Assembly (NCBI GenBank): GCA_902812405.1
Contig: CADDZI010000013.1
Location: forward strand, 1-49,024
DNA from: a bacterium
GTDB lineage: Bacteria; Vulcanimicrobiota; Vulcanimicrobiia; Eremiobacterales; Eremiobacteraceae
Direction: 5' to 3'
Length of the DNA: 49,024 bases
A model generated the notes under the pieces. The model worked only from the letters and a program-made list of their open reading frames with translations, did no database searches and was not told the origin of the DNA. The translations under genes and the position numbers were made by a program. This document shows positions 16,898 through 49,024 of the stretch, in pieces (positions within the stretch are counted from its first letter, which is position 1; every line of letters begins with the position of its first letter).

Positions 16898-18088
16898 ATG
16901 CGCTCCGCCCGTTGGGTCGCAGCGGCGGTGCTGACCGCCAATCTTTTTGCCGGCACCCGCATCCTGGCAGGACCTGTCGCTTCGGCCTCTCCGCTACCCG
17001 CCCCCTCGTCCGTCCAGAGCAGCGCGGCCGACCTTCTCGCGCAAGCCCAGGCGGAGGCCGACGCCGGGCACAACGAGGCGGCGCGGGTTATTCTCATCCG
17101 CGCGACGGCGGCGTACCCCAACGATCTCGCCTTGGCGAAGCTCTTCGGCGACGTGGAATACCGTTTGCAGAATTACACGGCTGCCGCCGCGGCGTACGAG
17201 TTCGTCCTGTCGCGCGACCCGGGCAACAAGGATGTCCATAACCGCTTAGGTGGAGTCTATGCGGCGCTGGATCGATACGCGGACGCCATTCGGCAGTTTC
17301 GCTTGAGCTTGCCCCTTGCGGCGGGATTTGAAAATCTTATTGAGGTCTACGACGACCAGGGCCGCCTGGGAGATCTCGAACGCGAATACGTGGAGGACGT
17401 CGAGCGGTCTCCGGCGTCTCCCGGTGCGCACTTCAACCTTGCCCAGATCTACTACTATGAGAAGAAGTTAAGCGCCGCGCAATACGAATTCGAGCAGGCT
17501 CTCACGCTCGACCCCAACGACCTCGACGCGCGCAACGGTTTGGGAATGGTGTATGGGGATCTGGGGCGATACCAGGACGCGATCGCAGAGTACAAAAGTG
17601 TTCTCGCGCAAGACCCCAAGTACTACCTGGCGTGGATGAACTGGGGCGTTGAGCTCATCAACCAGGCCAAGTACGAGGATGCGATCGACAAACTGCAACG
17701 CGCGATTGCCTTGCAGCCCGCCTTTGCCCGCTCCCACGACAACCTGGGCGTCGCCTACGACTACCTGGGGCGCTTCACGGCGGCGGTCGAGCAGTACGAG
17801 ACGGCGCTGCAACTCGATCCGCGCGAGCACGAGGCGTACGAGAACCTGGGCAACATCTACAACAACCACAACCTGCTCAACCTGGCCGAGGCGGCCTTCA
17901 TCAAAGGCTTGGCGGTGGCGCCGCATGTGGCGGACCTGCACTACGACCTGGGCGTTGTGTACCAAGAGCAGCACAAGTACGCGTTGGCGGCCGAACAGTA
18001 CCGGGAGGCGCTGCGGGCCAATCCAAACCATCCCCAGGCCAAGGCCCTCTTAGCGCAAGTCGAGGCGCAGATCGGCCAGCATCAATAG
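16898..18088 (+). CDS. Secreted or periplasmic TPR-repeat protein
   Basis: 396 residues. An N-terminal signal peptide (MRSARWVAAAVLTANLFAGTRILAG) is followed by about ten consecutive tetratricopeptide repeats, recognisable by recurring YP/DPxxxxAxxxLGxxYxxxGxxxxAIxxY patterns (for example FNLAQIYYYEKKLSAAQYEFEQALTLDP). The repeats fill the protein; no enzymatic domain is seen. Such proteins are scaffolds for protein-protein contacts. It is divergent from the lipoprotein gene with a 200-base spacer. Confidence 0.88.
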   Translation: MRSARWVAAAVLTANLFAGTRILAGPVASASPLPAPSSVQSSAADLLAQAQAEADAGHNEAARVILIRATAAYPNDLALAKLFGDVEYRLQNYTAAAAAYEFVLSRDPGNKDVHNRLGGVYAALDRYADAIRQFRLSLPLAAGFENLIEVYDDQGRLGDLEREYVEDVERSPASPGAHFNLAQIYYYEKKLSAAQYEFEQALTLDPNDLDARNGLGMVYGDLGRYQDAIAEYKSVLAQDPKYYLAWMNWGVELINQAKYEDAIDKLQRAIALQPAFARSHDNLGVAYDYLGRFTAAVEQYETALQLDPREHEAYENLGNIYNNHNLLNLAEAAFIKGLAVAPHVADLHYDLGVVYQEQHKYALAAEQYREALRANPNHPQAKALLAQVEAQIGQHQ

Positions 18089-18192
18089 GCATGCACGTGC
18101 CGCCGCAAGCCGCAGCGACGGTGGGGTGGCCGCGAAACCTCATCCGCCGCTGCCGAAGGCGGCTTTTCTCACCTCGCGTGACGGCCCTCGGT

Positions 18193-18603
18193 TTACGGGA
18201 GATCTCTCTCTGCCGTACCTGCCGTTGTCGAAGGGGCGAGTGCAATTGCATCCACCTCGATCAGCGCTCCGGTCGGCAGTGCGTTGCATCCGACGGTCGT
18301 GCGCGCCGGCCGATGATCGCCGACGGCCTTCTCATACACCTCGTTCACCTCGGCAAAGCGCGACAGGTCGGTGAGGAAGATGGTGATTGTGACGGCCTGA
18401 GCAAGGCTCGATCCGCCGGCTCGCAGGACCGCCTCCAGGTTCGCGAAAGCCCGCTCAGCTTGAGCCCTGAGACCCGGCGCCAAAGTTCCCGTCACCGGAT
18501 CTCTGCCGACTTGGCCTGCCGCAAAGATGAAGCCGCCGGCGTGCACGGCCTGACTGTAAGCGGCCGCGGGCCGCGGTGCTTGGTCCGACGATATCACGCG
18601 CAT
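18193..18603 (-). CDS. RidA family (YjgF/UK114) protein
   Basis: 136 residues of the RidA fold: MRVISSDQAPRPAAAYSQAV, FIFAAGQVGRDPVTG, and the active-site arginine segment PARTTVGCNALPTGALIEVDAIAL. Canonical RidA hydrolyses reactive enamine/imine intermediates released by PLP enzymes. A PLP-dependent aminotransferase gene lies 6 kb away. The C-terminus has a short extra tail (PSTTAGTAERDLP). Assignment to a Rid subfamily is not possible by eye. Confidence 0.88.
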   Translation of the reverse strand: MRVISSDQAPRPAAAYSQAVHAGGFIFAAGQVGRDPVTGTLAPGLRAQAERAFANLEAVLRAGGSSLAQAVTITIFLTDLSRFAEVNEVYEKAVGDHRPARTTVGCNALPTGALIEVDAIALAPSTTAGTAERDLP

Positions 18604-18733
18604 GCGACGAACCTGCCACGCAGGGCGGCCCGGGCCCTGCTGCCATATGAAGGACCATGACGCAAGCAGCCCGGCCTGCCGATAACTAGACCAGCGGTCG
18701 CCCCTGCCACGCAGGCTGGAACCGCCGCATGAT

Positions 18734-20560
18734 ATGAGCAACGCTACCGCAGGTCTGGCCGTCGATGAAGCGCGCCGGCTCGAGAGCAGCATCCTCAAAG
18801 CACGCCTGTTCTCGCTGGGTGTCGCCGCTGTAGCTCTCTCCTTCCTGCCGTGGTCGTATCCGCGTTGGCTGCAGGCTGCATTCATCCTCACGTGGTTCGT
18901 GCAGGGCATCGTGGCCGCGATGTTCGTGCGTCGCGCCTGGGAGGCGCGCCAGGTTCGCGCCGCCGGCCGGGCGCTGATGGTGGCTGACGCCGTCCTCATG
19001 GTGGCGATGATTCGGCTGTTTTTACCGACTCTGCCCGAAGCGTGGATAGCCATGCTCGTGCCGCTGATCTGGGCCGGCGTGCGCGAAGGAGTGTTGGCGG
19101 CGGCGGCGGTGGCCGTTGTCACGACCCTGCTTTTGGCAGCCGCGCTGTGGCTGCGATGGATGCCGCCGGCCGGCGAACCCCTCGCCGGCCGCTTCGCGTT
19201 CGATACGGGCATCATCTGGATGGCTGTATTGGCCATTCGGCAGCTGGTCTGGGGTGTGAGCCGGCGCAATCAGATCCTGGCGACGCAGCAAACGCAACTG
19301 GCGCAGGCGCTGAAGAGTCAGCAGGCGCTGCGGGTACGCGCGGACGCGCAGGCTGCGACTTTGAAAAGGGTTACCGAACTGGCGGTCTCGCTGTTGCGCG
19401 AGAGTCACGTGGAGGCGCTGCTCGAGCGTATCTTGGACGTGACCTTGACGTCGTTTGGCTTCCGAGCCGGCTCACTGCTGTTGGCCGAACGCGAATCGGA
19501 ATGCTACCGCTACCACGTCGTGCGCGGCTATCCCGAGTCCGTTGCACGCCGCCTCCAGGGCGCGACGGTTCCCTTTGCTGTCATCGAATTGAAGATTGAC
19601 AAACGTTTTGCAATACGGCCCGAGGTATTCTATGCGCCGGTCGAACGTCAAACCTGGTACACCGACCCGGAGAGGTGTTACGCTCCGAACCGGGTCGACG
19701 AGCGCCGCGCCGCCCCGGGGGCGTGGCACGAGGCGGATACCTTGATGTTTACCCTGCGCAGCTCCGCAGGCGAGACGATCGGCTTGCTCGTGCCCGACGC
19801 GCCGGCCGATGGGCGCATCCCCAACGACGACACCATCGACACCATTGCGCTCTTTGCCCGCCTGGCGGCCGCGGCGATCGAAAACCTCCACCTCGTTTCC
19901 AGCGAGAAGAGCCGTGCCAAGAGCCTCAGCGAGGAGAACCTCGAGATTCGCCGCCTCTACGCAAGTTTGGAAGCCTTGGCCGAGGAACGCCGCCTGGAGG
20001 CCGAACGTTTGACTCGCATCCTCGAGCTGACGGCGGCGATTTTCCGGGAGCGCAACTTAAGCCACATGCTGAAACGTATCCTGCGCGTCGCCATCGACAG
20101 CTTTGGCTTTTCCGCCGGGTCGATCGTTCTCTACGATCCGCGGCGCAAGGTGTACGTGCGCCACGCCGCGGTCGGCTATGCCGAGGGCGTTGAGGGGGCG
20201 GAGGTGCCGGTGGAGGACGTCGAGCGGTACATGACGGCGCGAACCAGAGTCCGTGAGACGTTCTACTACGCGCCGATGGAGCTCAACCTCGAGGGCGGCG
20301 TCACCCGTCACCCGGAGCGGCTCACGCTGCCGCGCATCCAACCCGGCGACTGGCACGAGAGCGACGTGCTTCTGTTCCCCATCTTCGATTCGGCGGGTGC
20401 GATGATCGGCGTCCTCTGTCCGGACGACCCGAAAGATCGCCGGCTGCCGCGCGAGGAGACGATTCGAACGATCGAAGTCTTTGCCCAACTGGCCGGCATC
20501 GCGGTCGAGAGTGCGCGCCTGCGGGATGCCGTCGGGCAGCAGGCAGCCGCCAGCCTGTAG
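18734..20560 (+). CDS. Membrane-anchored double-GAF protein
   Basis: 608 residues. Four or five membrane helices (about 22-165) are followed by a coiled-coil-like linker (about 170-205) and two related GAF domains (about 215-390 and 440-600), each opening with LxxRILxxxxxSFGFxAGS and ending with IGxLxPDxPxDxRxPxxxTIxTIxxFAxLAxxAIE. A second coiled coil (EENLEIRRLYASLEALAEERRLEAERLT) joins them. No histidine kinase, GGDEF, EAL or phosphatase domain follows; the protein ends right after GAF 2. Its TAG stop lies inside the adjoining palindromic repeat. Confidence 0.82.
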   Translation: MSNATAGLAVDEARRLESSILKARLFSLGVAAVALSFLPWSYPRWLQAAFILTWFVQGIVAAMFVRRAWEARQVRAAGRALMVADAVLMVAMIRLFLPTLPEAWIAMLVPLIWAGVREGVLAAAAVAVVTTLLLAAALWLRWMPPAGEPLAGRFAFDTGIIWMAVLAIRQLVWGVSRRNQILATQQTQLAQALKSQQALRVRADAQAATLKRVTELAVSLLRESHVEALLERILDVTLTSFGFRAGSLLLAERESECYRYHVVRGYPESVARRLQGATVPFAVIELKIDKRFAIRPEVFYAPVERQTWYTDPERCYAPNRVDERRAAPGAWHEADTLMFTLRSSAGETIGLLVPDAPADGRIPNDDTIDTIALFARLAAAAIENLHLVSSEKSRAKSLSEENLEIRRLYASLEALAEERRLEAERLTRILELTAAIFRERNLSHMLKRILRVAIDSFGFSAGSIVLYDPRRKVYVRHAAVGYAEGVEGAEVPVEDVERYMTARTRVRETFYYAPMELNLEGGVTRHPERLTLPRIQPGDWHESDVLLFPIFDSAGAMIGVLCPDDPKDRRLPREETIRTIEVFAQLAGIAVESARLRDAVGQQAAASL

Positions 20561-43583: not shown

Positions 43584-44009
43584 GTGCTGACAAAAGAACC
43601 AAAAACGCGGACGTATGTCTTTCGCTCGGACGTCGTGGCCACCGTTCTGAACGACGGCGCCGTCCTGCTGGATCTGGAAACCAAATATTTTTACCGGCTC
43701 AACCGTACGGGCTGGATGATTGCGCAGCTGTTCGAGGCGGGAACGAGCGCCGAAGGGGCGTGGCAGCGCTGCTTGGGGTGGGGATCCTCTGAGGCAGACA
43801 GAGCCGCCGTCGAGGCGCTGTGCGAAACCCTGATCGGCGAGCGGCTAGTCGAAGAAGCCCCGGAGGGCAATGCCGCACAGGTGGCCGCCGGCGCGGACGA
43901 GACATCCAACGGCGCCGCGTGGACCACGCCGACGATTGAGCGCCAGGCCGAGCCGCTCCAGAAGGTCATCATCAGCGCTTTCGATCCGAGCGTCCCGTTG
44001 GTGGAATGA
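43584..44009 (+). CDS. PqqD family protein (RRE-type peptide-recognition domain) with C-terminal tail
   Basis: 141 residues. Residues 11-91 form a PqqD-like winged-helix fold (VLNDGAVLLDLETKYFYRLNRTGWMIAQLFEAG, then VEALCETLIGERLVEE); such domains bind leader peptides in PQQ and lasso-peptide (B1) pathways. A low-complexity linker (92-112) leads to a 29-residue tail beginning WTTPTIERQ and ending FDPSVPLVE, which is leader-like. The GTG start has GGGAGG 4-5 bases upstream; the frame is open upstream but that part is not PqqD-like. Its TGA overlaps the ATG of the HPr-kinase-like gene (ATGA). Confidence 0.8.
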   Translation: MLTKEPKTRTYVFRSDVVATVLNDGAVLLDLETKYFYRLNRTGWMIAQLFEAGTSAEGAWQRCLGWGSSEADRAAVEALCETLIGERLVEEAPEGNAAQVAAGADETSNGAAWTTPTIERQAEPLQKVIISAFDPSVPLVE

Positions 44010-45010
44010 ATAATGCGACGCCGGCCGGACTGTTGACCGCTGGCAGATTCGCATGCGGCCCGCTCGACGTGCAGCTCGTGACGAGTAGCACCGACCTGCG
44101 CACCAAACTGTCCGAAACATTTTCGCTCTATGACTTGGTCTGGACGCCTCCACGGCACCCGGTGCACGTGTGGGCCAGCCTCTGCCGCGTCCCATCCGCG
44201 CCCGCACGGGGGGCCTTCCTACGCTGCGGCCGGATGTGGGTCGATCGAACGCCCCGGGGCCTGCGGGCGACGACGGTTTCCGGCGCCGGGGCCGAGTGTA
44301 TCTATCACGAGGACGGTGAGGAATGGCACCTTGAGGTGGCCGAGAGCCTGGTGGCGGACGGCAAGCTCGAAGAATTAGAGGACATCCTCAGCCTTGTTTT
44401 GACCACCGGCTGGCGCCGGACGGGTTGGACGCCGGTCCATGCGGCGGCGGTTGAGCGCGACGGCAGCTGCGTGATGTTCTGTGCTCCGACCGGCGGCGGC
44501 AAGACGACGATGACCGCAGCCTTGGTGCGGCGAGGCTGGCGGGTGCTCGGCGACGACAAGCTGCTCCTGCACCTTCGGGATGGCGAGCCTGAGGTCGCCG
44601 CTCTCCTGCATACGTTCAATCTCCACCCCCAAACGCGCCGCTGGTTCCCGGAAGTGGGCGACCTGGAACACTTGCCCCGCTACTCGGTCTGGACCGAAAA
44701 GCGGAAGGTGCGGGTGAACGACATTTGGGTCGGGGCGACGGCGCTACGGGCGCGGCCGCGCGTCCTCGTGGCGCTGAATCGCAGCCCGGATGTCGCCCAG
44801 GCCGAGATCCAGCCGCTGTCTCCCCCCGCCGTCTTGGAAACACTCCTGCGTCAGACTGTCATTCCGGCCGACCGCGATGTCGCGCGGCCGATCCTGACGG
44901 CAGTTGCGCACACTGCAGCTCGGCTGCGCGGCCTGCGCCTCACCGTGCCCCACGACGGCTACCGGCAAGCCGGCTTGTTGTCGCGCCTGGAGGAGGCGTT
45001 TGGGGAGTAG
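44006..45010 (+). CDS. HPr(Ser)-kinase-like P-loop protein
   Basis: 334 residues. The C-terminal half is HPrK-like: VHAAAVERDG, the P-loop CAPTGGGKTTMTAALV (about 159-174), and WRVLGDDKLLL with the paired aspartates, then FNLHPQTRRWFPEV. The N-terminal half is unlike the HPr kinase regulatory domain. Homologues in lasso-peptide clusters of the paeninodin type phosphorylate the precursor; others sit in polysaccharide loci with unknown targets. No HPr gene is nearby, so sugar-system control is unlikely. Confidence 0.82.
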   Translation: MNNATPAGLLTAGRFACGPLDVQLVTSSTDLRTKLSETFSLYDLVWTPPRHPVHVWASLCRVPSAPARGAFLRCGRMWVDRTPRGLRATTVSGAGAECIYHEDGEEWHLEVAESLVADGKLEELEDILSLVLTTGWRRTGWTPVHAAAVERDGSCVMFCAPTGGGKTTMTAALVRRGWRVLGDDKLLLHLRDGEPEVAALLHTFNLHPQTRRWFPEVGDLEHLPRYSVWTEKRKVRVNDIWVGATALRARPRVLVALNRSPDVAQAEIQPLSPPAVLETLLRQTVIPADRDVARPILTAVAHTAARLRGLRLTVPHDGYRQAGLLSRLEEAFGE

Positions 45011-45012
45011 CC

Positions 45013-45915
45013 ATGCCATCGGTGAGCGTCGTCCTTCCCGCATACAATGCCGCAGCCACGATCGGCGATACGCTGCAGGCGCTGCTCGGACAAAGCTGCG
45101 GCCCGTCGGACCGGGAAATCATCGTTGTCGATAACGGCTCGACCGACGGAACGCCCGACGTCGTTGCGCGCTATCCCGGTGTACGCCTGCTGCACGAGTC
45201 GACCCGTGGCCCGGCTGCGGCCCGCAACTGCGGTTTGCACCAGGCCGCCAAGGACATCATCGTGCACTTGGACGCGGACACGCTGCCGGCTCGCACCTGG
45301 CTTGCCCGCCTGGTAGCGCCGTTCGACGACCCGCGGGTCGTCCTGGCGGGCGGCCGGACCCTCATCTTCCATCCCACGACACCCGTCGAACGCTACATCG
45401 CCGGCGCCGGGCTCTACGAAACCGAGAGGGCAATCACGCGGCCCCCGTTTCCTTTCGTGCCGTCGCTCAACATGGCCGTGCGGCGCAGCGTCGCCCTGGA
45501 AGTCGGCGGATGGGATGTCGGCTTGTTGACTGCCGAGGACGTCGATTTTTCTCACCGCGTGCTCAAACGCTACCCGGACAGCATCGCCTACGCGCGGGAT
45601 GCGGTCCTCTTTCACCGCGTGCGCGCGACGCCGGAACAGTTGATCCGGCTGGCCGACTCCTACGGCCGGGGCGTCGCAGCGATGTACATGCGCTACCGCG
45701 ATGAGGTTCGCTGGGATATCGTCAAAACGGTCAAGGTGAGAGGCCGGATTGGGCTGCGGGCGATCGAGGCGGCGGCGTTGCGCTGGGGTGCGGCCGTGAG
45801 GATTGTGCCGCCGGCTCGCGCAGATTTTTCGTACTGTCACTACCTCTGGTCGCGCCACTTCGCGCGCGGCTTTTTCACCTACTACCGGCGCGCCCAATGG
45901 GAGGCGCGGGCGTAA
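45013..45915 (+). CDS. Family 2 glycosyltransferase
   Basis: 300 residues, GT-A fold. MPSVSVVLPAYNAAATIGDTLQALL, the nucleotide region VVDNGSTDGTPDVV, the DxD-type HLDADTLPARTW, and the acceptor-side LLTAEDVDFSHRVLKRY give a standard inverting GT2. No membrane helix is evident, so the donor is probably a UDP- or GDP-sugar used at the inner face of the membrane. It starts 2 bases after the kinase-like gene. Confidence 0.92.
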   Translation: MPSVSVVLPAYNAAATIGDTLQALLGQSCGPSDREIIVVDNGSTDGTPDVVARYPGVRLLHESTRGPAAARNCGLHQAAKDIIVHLDADTLPARTWLARLVAPFDDPRVVLAGGRTLIFHPTTPVERYIAGAGLYETERAITRPPFPFVPSLNMAVRRSVALEVGGWDVGLLTAEDVDFSHRVLKRYPDSIAYARDAVLFHRVRATPEQLIRLADSYGRGVAAMYMRYRDEVRWDIVKTVKVRGRIGLRAIEAAALRWGAAVRIVPPARADFSYCHYLWSRHFARGFFTYYRRAQWEARA

Positions 45916-45923
45916 GAGAGATC

Positions 45924-46805
45924 ATGCCCTCGGTTAGCGTGGTCATCCCGGCGTACAACGCGCAGCACACCATTGGGGATTGTCTGGGCGCGTTGGCGGC
46001 GCAGCAGTGGCCGCGTGCGGATTTCGAAGTCATTGTCGTGGACGACTGTTCGTCGGACGGCACCGCCCAGGCCGCGCGCGCCGCCGGGGCGCACGTCGTC
46101 CACCACGCATCCAACCGCGGCGCCGCCGCGGCGCGCAATACCGGCTGGCAGGCAGCGCGCGGGACGTGGGTGGCATTTACCGACGCCGACTGCCTGCCTG
46201 CGCGGGGCTGGCTGCGCTGGCTCTTGGCTGCGGTCACCGGCACACCCGGCGCAACCGGTGCTGCAGGGAAAAGCGTTGGCTTTGATTCGCGAACGCCGGC
46301 CGCCCGGTTTTGCGACCTCGACGGCAGTCTGGATGCCGGCCGCTACCTCGCGCATCCTCGCTTTCCGTTTGCTCCGTCGCTCAATCTGATGTACCGGCGC
46401 AGCGTGCTGGTCGCGGTGGGTGGTTTCGACGAACGCTACGCGACCTACGACGCCTGCGACCTGCATCAGCGCATCCGGCAAGCAGACGGCGGCCCTTTCC
46501 TGTACGAACCCCGGGCGCTCGTCCTGCACCGGCATCGCGAGCGCTGGGCCGAGTTTTGGCGCCAGCAGTACGGCTATGGCAAAGGCTACGGGCAGTTTAT
46601 GCTGCATCACCGCCGCGACTGCCGCTGGACGCTCGGGCACGAGCTGCGCGAGCTGGGCACGATTGGCGGTCTGGCACTGACCGCATGGCTTCCGGCACGC
46701 GACGACCGGCAACTCGTACGGCGCGGGCTCTTGGTGAAGAAAGCAGCTCAGCACGCCGGCTTCCTGCGGGTGTGGCTCGACGCACGGGAGCGAGCCCGGT
46801 GGTAA
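45924..46805 (+). CDS. Family 2 glycosyltransferase
   Basis: 293 residues. MPSVSVVIPAYNAQHTIGDCLGALA, VVDDCSSDGTAQAA, FTDADCLPARGW and RFPFAPSLNLMYRRSVLVAVGGFDERY, with DACDLHQRI as the acceptor-side acidic motif. It is clearly related to the gene before it (similar start, ARGW/ARTW and PFAPSLN/PFVPSLN), suggesting an old duplication. An AGAGAG site precedes the ATG, 9 bases after the first transferase. Confidence 0.92.
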   Translation: MPSVSVVIPAYNAQHTIGDCLGALAAQQWPRADFEVIVVDDCSSDGTAQAARAAGAHVVHHASNRGAAAARNTGWQAARGTWVAFTDADCLPARGWLRWLLAAVTGTPGATGAAGKSVGFDSRTPAARFCDLDGSLDAGRYLAHPRFPFAPSLNLMYRRSVLVAVGGFDERYATYDACDLHQRIRQADGGPFLYEPRALVLHRHRERWAEFWRQQYGYGKGYGQFMLHHRRDCRWTLGHELRELGTIGGLALTAWLPARDDRQLVRRGLLVKKAAQHAGFLRVWLDARERARW

Positions 46806-47296
46806 GCCGGCCGTTTGCGCCGAAATGGACGCCTCGCGGTTTTGCGCAACGCATCCGCTACTGGTTCCGGCAACCTTCGGACGTCCTGCTCGCAGTTCAG
46901 ATCGCTCTCTTCATCTTGCGCGCGCCGGCGCACATGCGCGGCCAGCACCTGGGAGCGTTCCTCGCATCCTTACGTTCACGTCCTCGGCCGCGGGCCCGCA
47001 GCGTGCAGGAAAGTTTGGAGCGCATTCAGCGCCTGCGAAGTCTGTGTCTGTGGCTGCCGCTGTTGCGGTCGCGCAATTCGTGTTACATCCGGGCACTGAC
47101 GCTGTACCGCTTCCTGGAGGCCGGCGACGACAAGGTGACGATCCACTTTGGGATCGAGGAGCGTGACGACCCGGCTGAACGGCTGCGCGGTCATGCCTGG
47201 GTGTCGCTGAACGGACGGCTGTTGGAAGGACCGCCCGAAGTCATTTACTCCGTGTTGCGCGAGGTGCCTCTCGGCGGACAGGGACTCGCCGGATGA
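46799..47296 (+). CDS. Lasso-peptide B2-type transglutaminase-like cysteine protease homologue
   Basis: 165 residues from a GTG that overlaps the previous gene by 7 bases, with GGGAG upstream. It matches the Transglut_core3 (PF13471) pattern: the nucleophile segment NSCYIRALTLYRFL (Cys95) and GHAWVSLNGRLLEGPPEV (His132), with Glu143 at the place of the third catalytic residue. In lasso-peptide pathways B2 removes the leader peptide with help from the RRE protein B1; here the RRE protein is encoded 2.8 kb upstream. The length is normal for stand-alone B2 proteins. Confidence 0.82.
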   Translation: MVSRPFAPKWTPRGFAQRIRYWFRQPSDVLLAVQIALFILRAPAHMRGQHLGAFLASLRSRPRPRARSVQESLERIQRLRSLCLWLPLLRSRNSCYIRALTLYRFLEAGDDKVTIHFGIEERDDPAERLRGHAWVSLNGRLLEGPPEVIYSVLREVPLGGQGLAG

Positions 47297-48435
47297 CCGG
47301 GCAGCCGGCCCCCGAACAGGCCGGATTCGCGGCGTTGGTGGCTGCCGTCCAGGCGATCGAACAGAACCGCCCGGACGATCTGACGGCATTATTGACAACC
47401 GCATCCCGCGAAGGGCTGTTGCGCGCCGCCGCACGTCACCGATGTCTGGGCTTTTTGCGCCGCGGTATCCTCGGCATGGGCGTCCGGACAGCCCAGGCGA
47501 GGGAGCTTGTCGCGTCGCTGCGCGCATATGCAGGCAAGGCTGCCGTCCTTGCCTATGCCGTGCGGCCGCAAGTCGCATCCTTGGTATCGGCTCTCTCAGA
47601 CGGGGACGTGCGCTACGTTCTGCTCAAGGGTGCGGCGCGGCTGTTTCGCGGCCGCCAAGAGGCCGACGACGACACGATGTATGACCTGGATGTGCTCGTC
47701 GCGCGTGCGGATGCGGGTAGGGCGTGGGGAATCCTGCGCGATGCGGGCTACCGCCCGGCGGGCGGAGAAGTCGAGGAACGGCGCTACACGCTGCGCCACC
47801 ATCACCTGGCTCCCCTGCAGCCTCCCGGCGTCGGCCTGCCGGTCGAGCTGCATCTCCAGCTTGCTCCCCGGCGCATGCTCTCGCTCTCGACAGACTATGA
47901 GGCGTGCGAGCCGCACCTCGAACGCGTCGTCGTCGGCTCGCTGACGGCGCCCTGTCTCAACGATGTTGGGATGGTCATCCACATGGCCATCCACGGGGTC
48001 GGCGTGCACCGTTTGTACGACGTCATCCAAATAGCGCGTGCGGTGCGCAACGGGGAAGTCTACGCGCGCGCGTGGCAGGTGCTCTCCTGCGAGCGTCGCC
48101 AGCAAGCTGCGGTTTTGGCGCCGCTTGTCCTGGGGGCGCGCCTTGCAGGCCGGGATGTGGCGTGTCCGCCGCGCGTCGAACGCTACCTGGCATGGGTCAT
48201 GCGCCGTGAAGCCCTGCCGGCGTACGTTCGCGACAGGTCTCAGGTAATGGATGCGTGGTTTTGCAACGGCGGTAGGCTGCTCGGACCGGCATTGTGGACG
48301 GCGTTACCGTTGGTCGAACCGCCGCCGCGCAATCCGCTGGCATATGCTGGGCTATACTGCTACCGTTTGCTAGGGCGCCTGGCAACGGCAGCCTGGATTG
48401 GCATGCACATGCGCATGGCCCGGGACGTGCCGTGA
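47293..48435 (+). CDS. Nucleotidyltransferase family protein (PF14907-like)
   Basis: 380 residues. A helical N-terminal part is followed by the nucleotidyltransferase core: VRYVLLKGAARLFRG (Lys112-Gly113) and the metal pair YDLDVLV (Asp131, Asp133), then HHHLAPLQPPGVGLPVELHLQL and HMAIHGVG. Members often accompany lasso-peptide genes, HPr-kinase-like proteins and asparagine-synthetase-like genes; the transferred group is unknown in most. The ATG overlaps the B2 stop (ATGA). Confidence 0.82.
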   Translation: MTGQPAPEQAGFAALVAAVQAIEQNRPDDLTALLTTASREGLLRAAARHRCLGFLRRGILGMGVRTAQARELVASLRAYAGKAAVLAYAVRPQVASLVSALSDGDVRYVLLKGAARLFRGRQEADDDTMYDLDVLVARADAGRAWGILRDAGYRPAGGEVEERRYTLRHHHLAPLQPPGVGLPVELHLQLAPRRMLSLSTDYEACEPHLERVVVGSLTAPCLNDVGMVIHMAIHGVGVHRLYDVIQIARAVRNGEVYARAWQVLSCERRQQAAVLAPLVLGARLAGRDVACPPRVERYLAWVMRREALPAYVRDRSQVMDAWFCNGGRLLGPALWTALPLVEPPPRNPLAYAGLYCYRLLGRLATAAWIGMHMRMARDVP

Positions 48436-49024
48436 GCGAGCCTTCCACTGCGGGTACGGTTGCACGCAACAGTCTGAGCACGTTTGCGGCACGTTTGGCG
48501 GGCGGCGTGCTCACGACCGTGGCGGGCATCGTCGTCGCCAAATCGCTGGGCCCGGCCGGCAAGGGTATCTACAGCGGCGTTTTCATGTTCGTCAACTTTG
48601 CGATGATTGCACCGGCGGGCATCGGAACCGCACTCGTCTATGCGCTGACCAAACAACAGCGGCGCGTCGGCGACCTGGTTCCCAGCCTCGTCTGGCTGCT
48701 CGTTGCGTGGACCCTCGCATGCTGGCTGGCAGCCCTGATCTGGGGAATCATCCACGGGTTTGGTCCTGCGCTGTGGGCCTTCATCGCGGCCATCCCACCC
48801 TCGATCATCCTCGCCTGGCAGGGAGGTTTGTACATTGGGATCGGCAGGATGGGCAACCTCAACGTTCAGACCTTCGGGTTGTCGGCGGCGCTCTGCCTGG
48901 CGATCGTCATTGTTCTGACCGTCGGCCACGGCGACATCCGGGGTGTGCTGGCCGCGTGGCTCATCTGTCTGTACGGTGCGGCCGCAGTCGTCGTCTGGCA
49001 CGCGCTCCGCCTGGGCGGGCGCAC
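48432..49024 (+). CDS. Polysaccharide flippase (MVF/Wzx-like), partial at window edge
   Basis: The frame starts at GTG 48432 (GTGA overlap with the nucleotidyltransferase stop) and is open to the last base: 197 codons visible. It begins SEPSTAGTVARNSLSTFAARLAGG, with repeated membrane helices (LTTVAGIVVAKSLGPAGKGIYSG, FVNFAMIAPAGIGTALVYALT, WLLVAWTLACWLAALIWGI). The KSLGPxGKGxYS motif and helix pattern match Wzx/MATE-like exporters of lipid-linked sugars. Truncated by the end of the window. Confidence 0.87.
   Translation, partial: MSEPSTAGTVARNSLSTFAARLAGGVLTTVAGIVVAKSLGPAGKGIYSGVFMFVNFAMIAPAGIGTALVYALTKQQRRVGDLVPSLVWLLVAWTLACWLAALIWGIIHGFGPALWAFIAAIPPSIILAWQGGLYIGIGRMGNLNVQTFGLSAALCLAIVIVLTVGHGDIRGVLAAWLICLYGAAAVVVWHALRLGGR

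Follow-up and report, generated by a model that had tools for sequence, protein, structure and literature searches.

The operon analysed here raises the question of what a lasso-type recognition and cleavage module makes when no cyclase gene accompanies it. The operon lies at the end of a 49,024-nucleotide stretch of DNA (the window; contig CADDZI010000013.1 of assembly GCA_902812405.1, from an uncultured member of the Eremiobacteraceae) and encodes a RiPP recognition element (RRE; RiPP, ribosomally synthesized and post-translationally modified peptide), a kinase, two glycosyltransferases, a B2-type peptidase, a nucleotidyltransferase and a flippase. A preliminary description saw in these genes lasso-peptide-type modules embedded in a glycan operon. 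We consider it probable that they form a cyclase-less RiPP pathway like that of the linear polyphosphorylated peptides (LPPs; Popov et al. 2026, PMC13381572), with its precursor fused to the RRE protein. Genomes, contigs and loci are cited by G, C and L numbers, G000 being the genome of the window.

A conserved C-terminal tail on the RRE protein

The first gene of the operon, which has a GTG start with GGGAGG upstream, comprises the following features.

43584..44009, + strand: RRE protein (PqqD/lasso-B1-like), with the RRE domain at residues about 13-91, a variable linker and a conserved C-terminal tail (family match, fold, tail alignment)
43920..43967, + strand: leader-like segment, residues 113-128 (WTTPTIERQAEPLQKV) (invariant residues, AlphaFold2 model, motif logic of PMC13381572)
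43968..44006, + strand: proposed core peptide, residues 129-141 (IISAFDPSVPLVE), up to the stop codon (invariant residues and register; putative boundary)
43974-43976, + strand: Ser131 codon, proposed phosphorylation site (invariance, +18 register)

The preliminary description was right to call the product a PqqD/RRE protein but overlooked its conserved C-terminal element. After the linker come 29 residues of the form W-x-x-P-x-[ILMV]...PL...S-x-F-D-P-[STG]-x-P-x-x-E-stop, with the consensus WxxPxIExQxEPLxxVxxSAFDPSxPLxE and a near-invariant core. This tail is found in every family member, always at the extreme C-terminus and always ending in Glu before the stop codon (13 sequences plus the divergent acidobacterial G818, whose tail ends SPFDPTVPIPE). 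W113, P116, P124 and L125 are invariant in the leader-like part, and S131, F133, D134, P135, P138 and E141 are invariant in the core in all 14 homologues. Among 11 non-redundant members, mean pairwise identity is 48% for the RRE domain, 12% for the linker, 55% for residues 113-127 and 90% for the last 11 residues. The last 11 codons differ by 333 synonymous and 67 non-synonymous changes (66 pairs, 12 sequences), and selection has therefore acted on the peptide, not on the DNA.

A hidden Markov model (HMM) of the tail gave exactly one strong match per genome in 13 of 13 genomes, always within the RRE protein. Since this search found no stand-alone precursor in the 13 genomes, we rejected a separate precursor encoded elsewhere. 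In this genome, a separate precursor with a leader and a ring-acceptor core is likewise missing: there is no second tail motif and the operon genes overlap. The preliminary description held that a RiPP role would be unlikely if, among other things, B2 and PqqD homologues never occurred with a precursor or cyclase; this objection does not apply, because the candidate precursor sits inside the RRE protein itself. We also rejected the idea that PqqD proteins in general carry in-cis tails, because 67 of 70 other PF05402 open reading frames (ORFs) in the phylum lack such a tail. Two of the remaining three belong to a second tail family (see below) and one is an ambiguous longer fusion.

The WxxPx[ILV] at the start of the tail fits [Y/W]xxPx[L/V/I/F/A], the leader motif bound by the RREs of lasso peptides and LPPs (PMC13381572). 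In the AlphaFold2 model of the window protein, predicted local confidence (pLDDT) is about 90 over residues 111-120 and residues 118-120 form a strand, preceded by a low-confidence linker and followed by low-confidence or disordered last residues. In G818, the member that diverges most, the model repeats this linker-strand-core pattern at lower confidence. These models suggest that the WxxPxI segment docks in the leader groove of its own RRE domain. From W113 to the invariant S131 the distance is +18 residues. In LPPs the leader Tyr is at -16, the cut falls after -1 and the kinase phosphorylates Ser3, so that Tyr-16 and Ser3 are also 18 residues apart (PMC13381572); on this register, B2 would cut after residue 128.

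Family assignments of the operon proteins

The remaining six genes, also on the + strand, are these.

44006..45010, +: HprK-like kinase, with the tail Ser as its proposed target (family match, invariant residues)
45013..45915, +: GT2 glycosyltransferase a (PF00535; best NCBIfam match MftF, below cut-off)
45924..46805, +: GT2 glycosyltransferase b (PF00535; best NCBIfam match MftF, below cut-off)
46799..47296, +: B2-type leader peptidase, transglutaminase-like (scores pass the PF13471 and NF033537 cut-offs; invariant C95, H132 and E143)
47293..48435, +: PF14907 nucleotidyltransferase-like protein, whose proposed substrate is the phosphorylated peptide by analogy to PsmN (PF14907 match; PMC9266682)
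48432..49022, +: N-terminal part of a Wzx/MATE-like flippase, GTG start (remainder on contig G000:C59, bases 3-731)

HMM searches agree with the families assigned in the preliminary description, with cautions for the RRE protein, which falls just below the PqqD threshold, and for the kinase, which is HprK-like only near the P-loop. The RRE protein scores 22.3 bits against Pfam PqqD (cut-off 23.4) and 31.8 bits against NF033530 (lasso PqqD). Its best Foldseek match is 5v1v, which is TbiB1 with its leader, and the best PDB matches of its HMM are TfuB1 (E 2.5e-6) and TbiB1 (E 1.7e-5). A lasso-B1-like RRE is thus supported by fold and profile despite the sub-threshold PqqD score.

The kinase reaches 47 bits against 200 for TIGR04352 (HprK-like), with similarity confined to the surroundings of the P-loop. 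Its H145, K166, D183 and D184 are invariant in 9 homologues and correspond to the His-Lys-Asp-Asp set described for paeninodin-type kinases (PMC9266682). The two GT2 enzymes match PF00535 at 113 and 109 bits and MftF at 146 (a) and 184 (b) bits, below the MftF cut-off of 280. MftF glycosylates mycofactocin. B2, the sole PF13471 protein in the genome, passes the cut-offs of PF13471 (49 bits, cut-off 26) and of the lasso B2 family NF033537 (41.8 bits, cut-off 33); its profile found no relative in the PDB. The protein encoded at 47293-48435 matches PF14907 at 79.6 bits (cut-off 31). In pseudomycoidin biosynthesis a nucleotidyltransferase-type protein adds hexose to phospho-Ser (PMC9266682), and a presumed likeness to this protein, PsmN, as the review text describes it, suggests a role in sugar addition. 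The last ORF of the window, cut off by the contig end, matches Polysacc_synt weakly. Neither a radical SAM gene nor an SpI gene is present in the operon; B2 takes the place of SpI. In line with the preliminary description, the RRE, kinase and B2 resemble a recognition, tailoring and cleavage module of the RiPP type, and of its two alternatives the one in which this module works on a peptide in the absence of a cyclase fits best.

Boundaries and recurrence of the operon

The seven genes occupy the stretch from 43,584 to the end of the contig and are separated in turn by -4, +2, +8, -7, -4 and -4 bases, in agreement with the description of co-directional genes with short overlaps or gaps. Because the window is an entire contig (G000:C13; assembly 2.3 Mb, 97% complete), 49,024 marks the end of the assembly and not of the operon. 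The flippase presumably resumes on C59 and is followed there by symporter, RsmI, MetRS and TatD-like genes (names past the flippase were read from the sequences). Genome G008 has the order flippase-symporter-RsmI as well, with one polyphosphate-kinase-like gene in between. About 20 residues are missing between C13 and C59 and the contig ends do not overlap, which makes the join a presumed one.

These housekeeping genes, together with the lack of a full cyclase, led us to reject a lasso cluster running past the contig, one of the two alternatives in the preliminary description. They also led us to reject a capsule or exopolysaccharide operon for this genome; that setting holds only in the G017/G058/G106 group, the only one in which polysaccharide genes (sugar-transferase, UDP-sugar dehydrogenase-like and polymerase-like) adjoin the module. 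The idea that the genes are embedded in a glycan operon does not hold here, since the seven genes stand alone, as they do in a metagenome-assembled genome (MAG) of the Chromatiales.

G017 and G058 share the order RRE-kinase-GT-GT-B2-PF14907-flippase with the window, as does G008 over two contigs; G040 has it in part, also over two contigs. In the Chromatiales MAG the seven genes are an island among unrelated genes, and this counts for a RiPP pathway. MAGs of the Terriglobia and Desulfobacteraceae carry the RRE-tail protein with at least a GT and B2, or with the kinase and GTs. The operon is real and not a chance assembly of genes, because the same set recurs in other genera. Most of the named relatives in which these proteins occur are MAGs of Candidatus Eremiobacterota (Vulcanimicrobiota). 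The family occurs in 10 of 149 genomes of the phylum (12 matches, two of them other RREs), in 1 of 399 genomes sampled around the Chromatiales MAG, in 2 of 396 around the Terriglobia MAG and in 1 of 395 around the Desulfobacteraceae MAG, and the tail family spans at least four phyla. Genes in the relatives were called by codon usage, which may miss genes in AT-rich genomes (L056, L117). A kinase tree had no well-supported branch and long branches for G818 and G151, and we claim no transfer route.

Several relatives vary the set. In G059, G110 and G113/L055 the RRE gene is preceded by a pair of genes that look like an ABC-2 ATPase and permease (checked against Pfam in G059 only). In G818 a single 601-residue protein (L112:11879-13684) holds both a B2 domain and a MatE exporter domain, a fusion that ties cleavage to export. 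A sugar-epimerase-like domain, which may supply the sugar, is apparently fused to the flippase at L024/L025 (joined, 17495-19636), L026:7573-9714 and L057:14712-16844; in G040 it is a separate gene directly after the RRE (L028:1284-2057). G040 also has two window-type kinases on two contig ends (L028:2054-3040 and L029:16232-17206), 40-43% identical to that of the window, possibly marking a second copy of the system.

A proposed pathway

The genes, the tail and its conservation, the conserved catalytic residues, the predicted strand and the absence of a full-length cyclase from this genome are observations. The pathway that follows builds on them as a proposal, in its choice of the tail as substrate as well as in its modified residue, cut site, sequence of steps and product. 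The RRE domain would bind its own WxxPxI segment in cis and present the C-terminal core (about xxSAFDPSxPLxE). The HprK-like kinase would then phosphorylate the invariant Ser131, and the PF14907 protein, the two GT2 enzymes or both would attach a sugar, possibly through the Ser131 phosphate. Cutting near residue 128, the B2 cysteine peptidase would release a linear phospho-glycopeptide of about 13 residues, to be exported by the Wzx-type flippase (by the ABC-2 pair or the MATE domain in other lineages). No cyclase would take part. The invariant H/K/D/D of the kinase and C/H/E of B2 count for such RiPP processing, as do the presence of the tail at the C-terminus of every member, its conservation as a peptide, its RRE-binding motif, the like AlphaFold2 patterns of two divergent members, the +18 register, the single tail match per genome and the lack of such tails in most other PF05402 ORFs of the phylum. 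That RRE and precursor are one gene product, giving a near-invariant linear phospho-glycopeptide with a conserved, cofactor- or envelope-like role in at least four phyla, is a further proposal that we regard as quite possible, short of probable.

Several points weigh against this pathway. An invariant core is unusual, since most RiPP cores vary, with PQQ and mycofactocin as exceptions. Curated HprK models match the kinase only around the P-loop, and the presumed third catalytic position of B2 is Glu, not Asp. The pairing of the strand in the groove rests on DSSP and pLDDT, and both AlphaFold2 alignments had 13-14 rows. The +18 Ser is a single register coincidence, and it is no rare event for a core of about 13 residues to contain a Ser. 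Deletion of the LPP NTP (nucleoside triphosphate) transferase changed nothing in a heterologous host (PMC13381572). Finally, the tail could serve in interaction or regulation instead.

Alternative explanations

The last point leads to the strongest rival, which we nevertheless think rather unlikely: the tail might be a docking or autoinhibitory peptide that sits in the groove of the RRE and brings in the kinase, B2 or the GTs to act on a peptide or protein not linked to it. A protein-protein interaction site would be expected to be as nearly invariant as the last 11 residues are, and the predicted occupancy of the groove in cis could be autoinhibition. However, no second protein with the motif exists in the 13 genomes, and the overlapping genes leave no space for a separate precursor between them. 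In addition, the tail opens with an RRE-binding motif, has the Ser register of LPPs and is always the natural C-terminus.

A module for glycan assembly or envelope modification is unlikely. Here the GT2 pair and flippase would build a short lipid-linked glycan that the RRE-tail protein, kinase, PF14907 protein and B2 couple to a protein or peptide anchor. Besides the GT2 pair and flippase themselves, the sugar-transferase, UDP-sugar dehydrogenase-like and polymerase-like neighbours in G017/G058/G106 speak for it, as does the sugar-epimerase-like domain fused to or beside the module in several members; LPP and paeninodin clusters are likewise found in capsule loci. Yet no further polysaccharide genes flank the module here or in the Chromatiales MAG, and another subtype has an ABC-2 exporter pair beside the RRE.

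A true lasso cluster, with cyclase and precursor elsewhere or lost in assembly gaps, is very improbable, and this interpretation is already largely refuted. The B1-like RRE, a B2 above the curated lasso cut-off, and a kinase and NTP transferase as in paeninodin clusters would suit it. Against it, operon boundaries are settled by C59 and the synteny of G008, and no full AsnB-type cyclase (PF00733) is present in G000 or adjoins the operon, as the preliminary description had noted for the window. The only PF00733 match in G000 is a 71-residue, 22.7-bit fragment in a 250-residue ORF (L037:7432-8184) that, by its sequence, reads like an ATP-pyrophosphatase and not a lasso C protein. Five other cluster-bearing genomes (G017, G058, G040, G106 and G110), three of them at least 90% complete, have no PF00733 match; G113, G149 and G150 have AsnB-type genes, on contigs other than that of the cluster. 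A degenerate remnant of a RiPP cluster without current function can hardly be expected: the scattered occurrence of the family (10 of the 149 genomes) would suit it, but open frames, synonymous-dominated tail divergence and a gene order kept across genera speak against it.

Further RRE-tail and LPP-like loci

Six proteins from two sampled phyla have a PqqD domain followed, near the C-terminus, by [YFW]xxPx[LI]...D[ML]x[EDG]LLxxDP[IV]H[DE]VxxxGWP (L064:9582-10109, L161, L167, L193:1408-1845, L194:1474-1914 and L195:1333-1794). Their neighbours include an HprK-like kinase (L064, L194), a GT2-like gene (L193, L194) and a PF14907-like gene (L195). Counted from the aromatic residue, position +18 is an Asp, and an Asp-Pro pair is common to both families. 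There would then be at least two RRE-tail families, that of the window and a second one ending ...LLLLDP[IV]H[DE]V...GWP.

LPP-like loci occur in the same phylum (L066:14373-17793, L033:8253-11772, L036:8061-12437, L031:7792-11189 and L035:8236-10849). They have one or two HprK-like kinases and a protein that is signal-peptidase-like at its N-terminus and like the window PF14907 protein at its C-terminus; some also have small peptides with MYIAPSV or MYVTPKI. In the acidobacterial sample, a locus of G724 (L114:6729-12080) combines a PqqD protein ending YVSPHMEKHGKLDQLMLSGE with genes for signal-peptidase-like, HprK-like kinase, GT4-like and PF14907-like proteins, and from its sequence the locus appears LPP-like, the motif being fused.

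In genome mining, an RRE is expected to have a short precursor ORF next to it. If precursors can be RRE-fused, such searches overlook a whole set of pathways, and the RRE proteins that are at present classed as chaperones may themselves carry the product. One gene would then be both scaffold and substrate, with known partners that open the role of PF14907 to study. The near-invariant core across phyla suggests a conserved function over an antibiotic arms race.

Comparison with known systems

In the mycofactocin and PQQ pathways a PqqD-type RRE presents a short peptide with an invariant core, and the GT2 enzymes of the operon score best against MftF. In contrast to those systems, the operon has no radical SAM gene, its GTs are far below the MftF cut-off and its precursor is fused.

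The paeninodin and pseudomycoidin lasso peptides share with the window family a B1-like RRE, B2, an HprK-like kinase with H-K-D-D, an NTP-transferase-type protein and the WxxP leader motif. The window family differs in having neither a macrolactam cyclase nor a separate precursor, and whereas paeninodin kinases act on a C-terminal Ser, the C-terminal residue here is Glu.

LPPs are already established as cyclase-less phosphopeptide RiPPs. They share with the window a lasso-B1-like RRE, an HprK-like kinase, an NTP transferase, a peptidase, an exporter and the absence of a cyclase, as well as the [Y/W]xxPx[LVIFA] motif in the leader, a Ser conserved at 18 residues past the aromatic one and, at times, a location in polysaccharide loci (PMC13381572). 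Their precursors are separate (35-200 aa) with variable C-termini, whereas the window has an RRE-fused tail with a nearly invariant core; the discrete LPP precursor motif is YxxPxVLxHQxIxFETxxS, in place of the fused WxxPxIExQxEPLxxVxxSAFDPSxPLxE. The LPP peptidase is of the SpI type rather than B2, their exporter is MsbA-like rather than of the Wzx, ABC-2 or MATE type, and the two GT2 enzymes are a further difference. LPPs have been described as restricted to Bacillota (PMC13381572), unlike the window family with its four phyla outside Bacillota. No natural RRE-precursor fusion was found in the literature searched, which is weak evidence as subscription papers were mostly outside it. Relative to LPPs, the window family differs in its fused precursor, its invariant core, the use of B2 in place of SpI and its occurrence in four phyla outside Bacillota.

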